Below, in pieces: positions 13,871 to 40,770 of a stretch of DNA of 64,000 bases (its first letter is position 1; each line of letters opens with the position of its first letter). The DNA is from Verrucomicrobiota bacterium (GTDB lineage: Bacteria > Verrucomicrobiota > Verrucomicrobiia > Opitutales > Opitutaceae), in NCBI GenBank assembly GCA_016235555.1, contig JACRKC010000088.1, forward strand, positions 1 through 64,000. The letters are read 5' to 3'. Both the position numbers and the translations under genes were made by a program. The notes below the pieces were generated by a model. It searched no databases and was not told the DNA's origin. It was given only the letters and a program-made list of their open reading frames with translations.

Positions 13871-13940
13871 GTGGTGGAGCGCGTTGCCCTCAACGCGCTT
13901 TCGCGACGCACGCCGTAATCCAAGCGCGTTAGGGGCGCTC
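13871..13940. repeat. Repeat family B, copy interrupted by other repeats
   Basis: GGTGGAGCGCGTTGCCCTCA, then ACGCGCTTTCGC...AAGCGCGTTAGG. The matching closing arm, CAGCGCGTTGAGGGCAACGC followed by GCTCCACC, is 250 bp away at 14197-14224. Family C and family A elements lie in between. Other copies are at 39017-39093 (inside a gene) and 60679-60755. Confidence 0.65.
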
Positions 13941-38514: not shown

Positions 38515-38552
38515 TTGTAGGGCGGGGTCGCCTGACCCCGCCGTTGGGAAAG
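38515..38552. repeat. Repeat family E
   Basis: GTAGGGCGGGGTCGCCTGAC then CCCGCCGTTGG. The same sequence forms the inverted repeat inside the coding region at 39748-39827. Confidence 0.65.
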
Positions 38553-38679
38553 TCCCGCTTCTCACGAAGCGGGCTACGAGCGACAGGTAGCCCGGCTCGT
38601 GAGAGCCGGGACCGCCCCGCCTTTGCCTGTTCGCCGTCGCGCGATTGTTTTCGAAACCTCGTTCTGTCTATCTGGGCCG

Positions 38680-40770
38680 ATGACCGATCCTGCGGACCGT
38701 GCAAAGATCTGGCTCGCGCTGGCCGCGATCGCGGTCGCCGTGCTCGCGGCCTACGCCAACAGCCTCCGCGGTCCCTTCGTCTTCGACGACGCCTCGTCGA
38801 TCATCGCCAACCCCACGATCCGCCGCCTCGACTTCGGCGCTCTCGCACCGCCCGACGCCGCCGTCACCGTCCAAGGTCGTCCGATCCTCAACTTCTCACT
38901 CGCCGTCAACTACGCGATCAGTGGCACGCAGGTCTGGAGCTACCACGCCCTCAACCTCGCGATCCACCTCTGCGCCGCCCTCACGCTCTTCGGCCTCGTG
39001 CGGCGGACCGCCGTCAGGTGGAGCGCGTTGCCCCCAACGCGCTTTCCGGATCCTCGCACGCCGTCGAACCAGCGCGTTGAGGTCAACGCGCACCACCTCG
39101 CCTTGGCCGCCACCCTCCTCTGGGCGCTGCATCCGCTCCAGACCGAGTCCGTCACCTACGTCATCCAGCGCGCCGAGTCGCTGTTGGGCCTGTTCTTCCT
39201 GCTCACGCTCTACTGCTTCGCCCGCGCGACCGATTGTCATCCATTAGATGACAATCGGTCGACTCCCGCCCAGAGTGAAAATACCGAGATTTGTCATCTA
39301 ATGGATGACAATCAGTCTGCGTGGGTTCGGTGGCTTTGGTTGGGGGCGGCGGGCCTCGCCTGCGCGCTCGGCACCGCGACCAAGGAAGTCACGGCCGTCG
39401 CGCCGCTCGTCGTGCTCCTCTACGATCGCACGTTTGTCAGCGGCACGTGGCGCGATGCGCTTCGCCGCCACCGCTGGTTCTACGCCGGGCTCGCGAGCAC
39501 CTGGCTGCTCGCCGCGTGGCTCGTGTTCGGCGGGGGCGGGAACCGCGGCGGTTCGTTCGGTGGCGACGTCACGCCGTGGGCCTACTGGCTTACGCAATTC
39601 CCCGCGATCGTGCGCTATCTGGCGCTCACGTTCTGGCCGAGCCCGCTGGTGTTCGAATACGGCACGTTCTGGATCGCGCACGTGACCGACATCGCGCTCG
39701 AGGCGCTGCTCGTGCTGGCCCTCCTCGCTGTCACGTTCGCCTCGCTCATTGTAGGGCGCGGTCGCCCGACCCCGCCGTCCGGGATGATCACTCCTTCGTG
39801 GCGGGGTCAGGCGACCCCGCCCTACATTCGACTCGCCGGCTTCCTCGGGGCGTCGTTCTTCCTGATTCTCGCGCCCACCAGCCTGATGCCCGGCACCACG
39901 CAGATGATCGTCGAGCACCGGATGTATCTTCCGCTGGCCGCGCTCGTGGTCGGCGTGGTTTGCGCCGTGCAGCAGTGGCTCGGCGCACGCGCGCTGTTCG
40001 CCTGGCTGCCGGTCGCGCTCGGACTCGGCGTCGCGACCGCGATGCGCAACGAAGACTACCGCAGCGAAATCACTCTCTGGCGTGACACGGTCGGGAAACG
40101 ACCGGACAACCCGCTCGCCCGCCAACTCCTCGCCGCCGCGCTCGAGCAGGCCGGCGACACCACCGGTGCGCTTACGCACTACGAAGCCGCGCTCCGCCTC
40201 AAGCCCAACTTCGCACTCACCCACGACACGCTCGGGCAGTTGCTTTTCCGCCTCGGCCGCCGCGACGAGGCCGCGGCGCACTTCGAGACGGCGCTCAGAC
40301 TCCAGCCCGCCTTCGCCGACGCCCACGATCACCTCGGCGCCGTGTTCGCGAACCAGCGCCGCTGGCCCGAAGCCATCGCGCACCACGAGGCCGCGCTGAG
40401 GGCGAAGCCGGATTTCCCCGACGCGCATTTCAATCTTGCCAACGCGCTCACCGCCGCCGGCCGCGCCGCCGACGCCGCACGCCACTACGAGGTCGCGCTT
40501 CGCCTGCGCGCCGACTTCCCCGCCGCCCACTACAACTACGCCAATCTCCTCGCCGAAACCGGCCGCCCGGCCGACGCGGTGCCGCACTACCAGGCGGCCG
40601 TCCGCCTGAAGCCCGACCACGCCGACGCCTACAACAATCTGGGCGGCGCTTTCATCGATCTCGGCCGGCTGCCCGAGGCCGCCGCGGCCTACGAGGCCGC
40701 GTTGCGCATCAATCCCGGCCTCGCCCACACCCGCGAAAACCTCGCCCGCCTGCGCGCGGCGATAAAGTAG
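38680..40770 (+). CDS. TMTC-like multi-TM protein with C-terminal TPR repeats, carrying three in-frame repeat insertions
   Basis: A 696-residue membrane protein. About ten TM helices (residues 10-480) are followed by at least five tetratricopeptide repeats (about 485-690; HYEAALRLKPNFALTHDTLG, HFETALRLQPAFADAHDHLG, HHEAALRAKPDFPDAHFNLA). This is the architecture of protein O-mannosyltransferase-like TMTC proteins, with FDDASSIIANP as the loop with the catalytic-type DD and LHPLQTESVTYVIQRAE as a conserved motif. Three interhelical loops contain in-frame copies of dispersed repeat families B, palindromes P and E (residues about 113-139, 185-212 and 357-383), yet the reading frame stays open. 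Function in glycan transfer is inferred from family, not shown. Confidence 0.85.
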   Translation: MTDPADRAKIWLALAAIAVAVLAAYANSLRGPFVFDDASSIIANPTIRRLDFGALAPPDAAVTVQGRPILNFSLAVNYAISGTQVWSYHALNLAIHLCAALTLFGLVRRTAVRWSALPPTRFPDPRTPSNQRVEVNAHHLALAATLLWALHPLQTESVTYVIQRAESLLGLFFLLTLYCFARATDCHPLDDNRSTPAQSENTEICHLMDDNQSAWVRWLWLGAAGLACALGTATKEVTAVAPLVVLLYDRTFVSGTWRDALRRHRWFYAGLASTWLLAAWLVFGGGGNRGGSFGGDVTPWAYWLTQFPAIVRYLALTFWPSPLVFEYGTFWIAHVTDIALEALLVLALLAVTFASLIVGRGRPTPPSGMITPSWRGQATPPYIRLAGFLGASFFLILAPTSLMPGTTQMIVEHRMYLPLAALVVGVVCAVQQWLGARALFAWLPVALGLGVATAMRNEDYRSEITLWRDTVGKRPDNPLARQLLAAALEQAGDTTGALTHYEAALRLKPNFALTHDTLGQLLFRLGRRDEAAAHFETALRLQPAFADAHDHLGAVFANQRRWPEAIAHHEAALRAKPDFPDAHFNLANALTAAGRAADAARHYEVALRLRADFPAAHYNYANLLAETGRPADAVPHYQAAVRLKPDHADAYNNLGGAFIDLGRLPEAAAAYEAALRINPGLAHTRENLARLRAAIK
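39017..39093. repeat. Repeat family B inside a coding sequence
   Basis: GGTGGAGCGCGTTGCCCCCA...CAACGCGCACCACC. It encodes residues 113-139 of the TMTC-like protein in frame (SALPPTRFPDPRTPSNQRVE). Same family as 13871-13940 and 60679-60755. Confidence 0.8.
39232..39313. repeat. Paired palindromes (family P) inside a coding sequence
   Basis: GATTGTCATCCATTAGATGA then CAATC, and its exact reverse complement TTGTCATCTAATGGATGACA, 34 bp apart. Each is itself a 9-bp-arm palindrome with a 5-bp loop. Read in frame they encode DCHPLDDNRSTPAQSENTEI. The ATGGATGACAA end is shared with repeat H at 29845. Confidence 0.8.
39748..39827. repeat. Repeat family E inverted repeat inside a coding sequence
   Basis: TGTAGGGCGCGGTCGCCCGA and TCAGGCGACCCCGCCCTACA flank a 30-bp centre and are read in frame as VGRGRPTPPSGMITPSWRGQ. 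Same family as 38515-38552. Confidence 0.8.

Follow-up and report, generated by a model that had tools for sequence, protein, structure and literature searches.

Three palindromic repeats in frame within one membrane protein gene of an Opitutaceae genome, one of them from a family linked to a small HTH gene

A single membrane protein gene in the 64,000-nucleotide stretch of Opitutaceae DNA analysed here (the window) has a reading frame that is open throughout in spite of containing three inverted-repeat elements, here called B, P and E, each belonging to a different dispersed family. We consider it probable that these are three separate, non-autonomous mobile palindromic elements that became inserted at loops between membrane helices, E being of the RAYT type, B similar to it, and P, the recurrent one, recognised by an HTH protein. 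Rickettsia is the usual illustration of how in-frame palindromes can give rise to new protein segments. In the genome from which the window derives (the window genome), in-frame insertion is common and can be traced over dozens of paralogues with both empty and filled sites. The analysis also brings to light a palindrome family apparently partnered by a DNA-binding protein, not a transposase, and this family poses the question of how such palindromes spread.

Three in-frame elements between predicted helices

The host gene lies on the forward strand at 38680-40770 and, according to the ORF listing, encodes 696 amino acids (697 codons counting the stop). Its product is a polytopic membrane protein whose C-terminal TPR repeats are the sole domain matched by Pfam; we call it TMTC-like, and putatively of the GT-C type, by resemblance. 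There are 18 close paralogues in the window genome. All three elements are given here as they read on the forward strand. Element B (39016-39098) is a REPIN-like pair with arms at 39016-39043 and 39071-39098, each of the pattern GTGG-AGCGCGTTG-N4-CAACGCGCT, and corresponds to about residues 114-141, in the loop predicted between TM2 and TM3. Element P (39228-39317) is an inverted pair of 21-bp palindromes, TTGTCATCCATTAGATGACAA, at 39234-39254 and 39291-39311; it encodes the peptide DCHPLDDNRSTPAQSENTEICHLMDDN at about residues 186-212, in the predicted TM4/TM5 loop. Element E (39750-39826) is a GTAG-type REPIN with arms TGTAGGGCGGGGTCGCC..ACCCCGCC at 39750-39776 and 39800-39826, encoding IVGRGRPTPPSGMITPSWRGQATPPYI at about residues 358-384, between predicted helices 338-357 and 385-404. 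The elements are thus 77-90 bp in length.

The original prediction, that three repeat families lie in frame within one membrane protein gene, is borne out, the residue numbers agreeing to within one or two. As it also anticipated, each of B, P and E corresponds to a gap when the protein is aligned with homologues from the window genome and from other genera, and averaged hydropathy places each of them between predicted helices. The positive-inside rule, taken with general knowledge of GT-C enzymes, suggests that the loops bearing the inserts are cytoplasmic. In the sequence of events that we propose, B, P and E would each have been inserted separately into the gene at these inter-helix loops, selection would have removed insertions that broke the frame, and the surviving copies would have been kept as extra peptide, their tolerance being owed to their position in loops.

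A quite different proposal would have the inserts recruited, the extra loop peptides adding a function to the membrane protein. We give this a very slim chance: repeats do turn up again and again in these loops, some of them from unrelated families in other genera, but the peptides differ and derive from unrelated repeats, inserts also occur in many unrelated genes, and most paralogues are free of them.

The three families had been described as intergenic elsewhere in the window. That description holds for a single E arm at 38516-38542 (forward strand), an exact match situated in the gap upstream of the host gene, and the B copies at 13873, 14196 and 60678 were not scored as in-frame; for P it fails, there being no other copy in the window. 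Beside the single E arm, at 38545-38620 and directly upstream of the host gene, is a further inverted repeat (CCCGCTTCTCACGAAGCGGGCTAC and GTAGCCCGGCTCGTGAGAGCCGGG).

Abundance of the families and their relation to known repeats

B, P and E are each dispersed through the 8.03 Mb window genome in numbers far beyond chance. With up to three mismatches allowed, E has 99 matches and B 443, the respective backward-pattern controls yielding 0 and 2, while P is represented by 54 palindromes and its backward-pattern controls by 0. A check for the same repeats inside other genes, suggested at the outset, was rewarded. Codon scoring was applied to roughly 1 Mb of sequence surrounding P, E and transposase sites, a sample that is non-random for B. 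In-frame intragenic copies made up 9 of 37 P sites, one of them contributed by alignment, 3 of the 49 B elements and 9 of the 47 E elements; one E case (L190) may be a spurious ORF. The P hosts, as named by eye, we take to include an arginyl-tRNA synthetase, an exosortase, an epimerase and a response-regulator linker; the E hosts presumably include a histidinol-phosphate aminotransferase, PrmC and a CusA-type pump.

Frame damage within the scanned 1 Mb or so was confined, for E, to one frame-shifted and one stop-containing copy, and no frame-breaking P pair was scored. On each strand, just one reading frame of P is open. All eight in-frame P pairs share a length of 78 bp, compared with 4 of 12 other pairs, although the in-frame label itself partly demands this length; the absence of frame-breaking P pairs therefore carries more weight than the shared length.

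The three families had originally been treated alike, a view that has to be given up: E and B are of REP/REPIN type and P belongs to an HTH-linked palindrome family. REPINs and REPtrons comprise a RAYT gene together with flanking REPs (PMC3116915, PMC8266576). E has the REPIN form, with inverted pairs of an imperfect palindrome preceded by a GTAG foot, and copies of E at positions 40, 555 and 635 of contig C79 flank a Y1_Tnp (RAYT) gene at 255-491; E is a RAYT-type REPIN and matches the REPIN/REPtron description in full. B has the form of the GTAG-type REPs, with a degenerate GTGG foot, a stem of 6-13 bp and inverted pairs, and so looks like a REPIN of the RAYT type, with no B copy directly beside any of the 10 Y1_Tnp loci in the window genome. 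RAYT-REP systems are many in this genome: at several of the loci L091-L100, Y1_Tnp genes are flanked by REP pairs of their own, for example GTAGGTCGGGCTTTACGCCCGAC on contig C59 and GTGGCACGGGTCTCCCGACCCGTG on contig C109.

A close precedent exists in Opitutus terrae, of the same family, which according to passages of Di Nocera et al. (2013, PMC3733652) had the highest number of intragenic GTAG REPs. The same passages describe in-frame translation of REPs, both monomers and dimers, some genes having two, propose loops and linkers as tolerant sites, and give a GTGG foot for most of the O. terrae GTAG-20 repeats. As in-frame REP insertion, then, the window gene is close to the published O. terrae cases, which share with it the bacterial family, the in-frame translation and the GTAG/GTGG foot of E and B; P differs from those repeats in having neither a GTAG nor a CGTC foot. 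Neither a gene with three families nor repeated insertion at one codon of a set of paralogues appears in the passages of PMC3733652 drawn on here. Rickettsia, put forward originally as the precedent, serves in so far as its palindromic elements, too, have entered many unrelated genes in frame and persist as peptide, but the closest precedent is O. terrae. The Rickettsia elements are also set apart by description, being about 150 bp long according to a review (PMC10969869), as against 77-90 bp for the elements reported here, which include a RAYT-type REPIN and an HTH-linked pair.

Recurrent insertion of P at one loop

The original prediction overlooked that several paralogues carry P at one shared codon. 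Five of the 18 close paralogues in the window genome have P, or half of it, in one and the same loop, as do three genes from other genomes, and in seven of these eight P-bearing genes the first palindrome stands at an identical codon distance from a conserved F.R motif. Five P sites are observed in these genes where 0.17 would be expected (p 1e-6). The window genome is a draft in 140 contigs, which might bring an assembly or sequencing artefact to mind; yet eight genes from four genomes have this element at one and the same place, every one with an open frame, and there are many other in-frame copies, which makes this explanation virtually negligible.

When a tree was constructed with the insert columns removed, P-bearing genes were scattered among P-free ones, implying 8 changes of which 7 are forced by well-supported branches, and a single origin of P was found in none of 200 bootstrap trees; the genes compared are about 50% identical and include no close-strain pair of empty and filled sites. 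The spacer between the palindromes offers a further line of evidence. It is 36 nt long with an asymmetric core, ACCTCTGGG, that runs opposite to the gene in the window gene and along the gene in its paralogues L119, L120 and L121. The 8 changes on the tree and the reversed spacer of the window gene relative to three paralogues together argue for recurrent insertion, and the P insertions in this gene family are best read as independent. One ancestral insertion inherited by the paralogues and followed by many losses would account readily for the shared codon in seven of eight genes, but P-free sisters occur throughout the tree, and the palindromes are still identical where the host genes have diverged. 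We consider such a history highly improbable, and reject it on the tree and the spacer orientation together, though not formally on the tree alone.

We would accordingly picture P, in our preferred account of independent events, as inserted repeatedly at one codon of the predicted TM4/TM5 loop in this gene family, its pairs probably entering GC-rich sites in either orientation. The outer flanks of P show a weak preference, with C at -9 in 32 of 40 ends. Extended complementary flanks around P were rejected as a signature of copying, being weak beyond two bases. The loops in question are recurrent acceptors, since unrelated repeat families are found in the same loops of TMTC-like genes from other genera: loop 1 of L034 (genome G070) contains a GTAG REPIN matched about 80 times in that genome, loop 2 of L234 (G145) a second multi-copy family, and loop 2 of L030 (G085) a repeat with one other, weaker copy. 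The GSPSTGSG inserts of L026 and L033 were discarded as dispersed repeats, each having just one match in its genome.

The paralogue L119, on contig C14, carries B as well as P, with B in the same loop as in the window gene. Beside its B insert is a further palindrome, GGGCAGGTCAAAGACCTGCCC, with four more occurrences in the DNA sampled; counting it, L119 would join the window gene in having three repeat families.

A palindrome family linked to a small HTH gene

P is not a REP of the RAYT type. The flanks of 40 P ends contribute just two extra palindrome bases, GT, with no GTAG or CGTC foot; no Y1_Tnp gene flanked by P was found, and no P is near any of the 10 Y1_Tnp loci of the window genome. 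A search for a transposase-like partner of P found none. Instead, P is a member of a palindrome superfamily, TGTCAY-N7-RTGACA, associated with a small HTH gene. In the window genome an HTH ORF at C70:12000-12347 lies between two P pairs, and P pairs likewise stand on either side of a homologous ORF in a second Opitutaceae genome. A profile search placed relatives of this HTH protein in 130 of 252 Opitutaceae genomes and, among 388 genomes drawn from the phylum, gave one weak match outside the family; none was found in viral contigs. At 29 of 30 HTH loci, counting L158 and L236 once as repeats of each other and including two pairs of near-copies, palindromes of the superfamily lie within 450 bp, in 21 cases on both sides, and their density falls from 3.4 per kb near the loci to 0.04 per kb far from them.

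The association extends to whole genomes. The general palindrome is present in 134 of the 252 genomes, in up to 115 copies, its backward control in none. At least three palindromes are found in 91 of 130 genomes with the HTH gene and in 16 of 122 without a scored one (p 8e-21, shared ancestry uncorrected), so that 39 HTH-positive genomes with fewer than three, and the 16 just mentioned, are exceptions. Within genus g7 the split is complete, with palindromes in 10 of 10 HTH-positive and 0 of 17 HTH-negative genomes. Protein and palindrome also covary across loci: with shared ancestry again uncorrected, Tyr before G[DE]K accompanies G before TGTCA in 7 of 7 cases and Arg accompanies T in 14 of 16 (p 1e-6), and an aromatic residue two positions after RQR.H goes with TGTCAC (p 0.001). 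Many of the more distant HTH homologues have other palindromes with the same TATTA-type centre, GTTTGTAACGTATTACGTTACAAAC at the second homologue of the window genome being one example, and some have none that we recognised.

Linkage and covariation of the HTH gene and P are thus shown. They suggest that the protein encoded at C70:12000-12347 binds P, and that the spread or upkeep of P may depend on it; the residue-to-base covariation makes such recognition directly testable. The protein has about 100-120 residues, and its resemblance to HTH proteins comes from weak Pfam matches and a low-confidence model (pLDDT 60) with a fitting order of helices. YdaS_toxin scores 16-19 bits, below the curated cut-off of 30, with 7 of 13 members matching weakly. 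The attempt to assign a named family was abandoned, with nothing above noise in NCBIfam or PHROGs, only weak YdaS/HTH_8 matches in Pfam and nothing useful in the PDB.

P resembles a REPtron in its dispersed inverted pairs of palindromes, in a partner gene that has its own palindromes on either side, and in a lineage-specific palindrome tied to that partner; it differs in the absence of a foot tetranucleotide and in a partner that is apparently a small HTH protein, not a Y1 (HUH) transposase. There is, in our judgement, about an even chance that P represents a new kind of dispersed element, almost restricted to the Opitutaceae, in which an HTH gene flanked by its own palindromes takes the place of RAYT, non-autonomous copies are dispersed, palindrome and protein co-evolve, and one codon is favoured. 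This HTH-linked, REPtron-like family is the new part, in-frame REP insertion being already known. In literature coverage that left most subscription journals outside, no report tying dispersed palindromes to an HTH partner was found.

The main rival holds that P copies are maintained binding sites of the HTH protein, serving a regulon or chromosome organisation, spread by duplication and recombination and needed where they lie within genes. Such maintenance would suit the 21-bp palindrome, which is near-identical in all copies from 13 genera (confinement of P to a single genus is ruled out by that count) while the spacers diverge, and also its covariation with the HTH protein. It would suit, too, a decayed half-P with two mismatches at nearly the same codon of the TMTC-like gene L027, in a genome (G065) where neither the HTH gene nor intact general palindromes were scored, although this copy fits the mobile-element view equally. 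Set against it, pairs with related spacers are found in either orientation and within genes unrelated to one another, copy number varies between 0 and more than 100 inside a single genus, and REPIN stems are conserved in like manner, through selection for movement. We regard this rival as unlikely though worth keeping in mind, and the two accounts are compatible; on the rival view the mobility of P would be secondary.

Some further palindromes were encountered. Single P palindromes lie mid-way in what is apparently another REPIN, with arms GTAGCGGCCGACGTGAGGAGGC, at four loci of the window genome (L070, L076, L081 and L088), as if P were its loop. A second HTH homologue of the window genome (L284, C120:61642-61962) is flanked by its own palindrome, GTTTGTAACGTATTACGTTACAAAC, which has one more copy in the DNA fetched.
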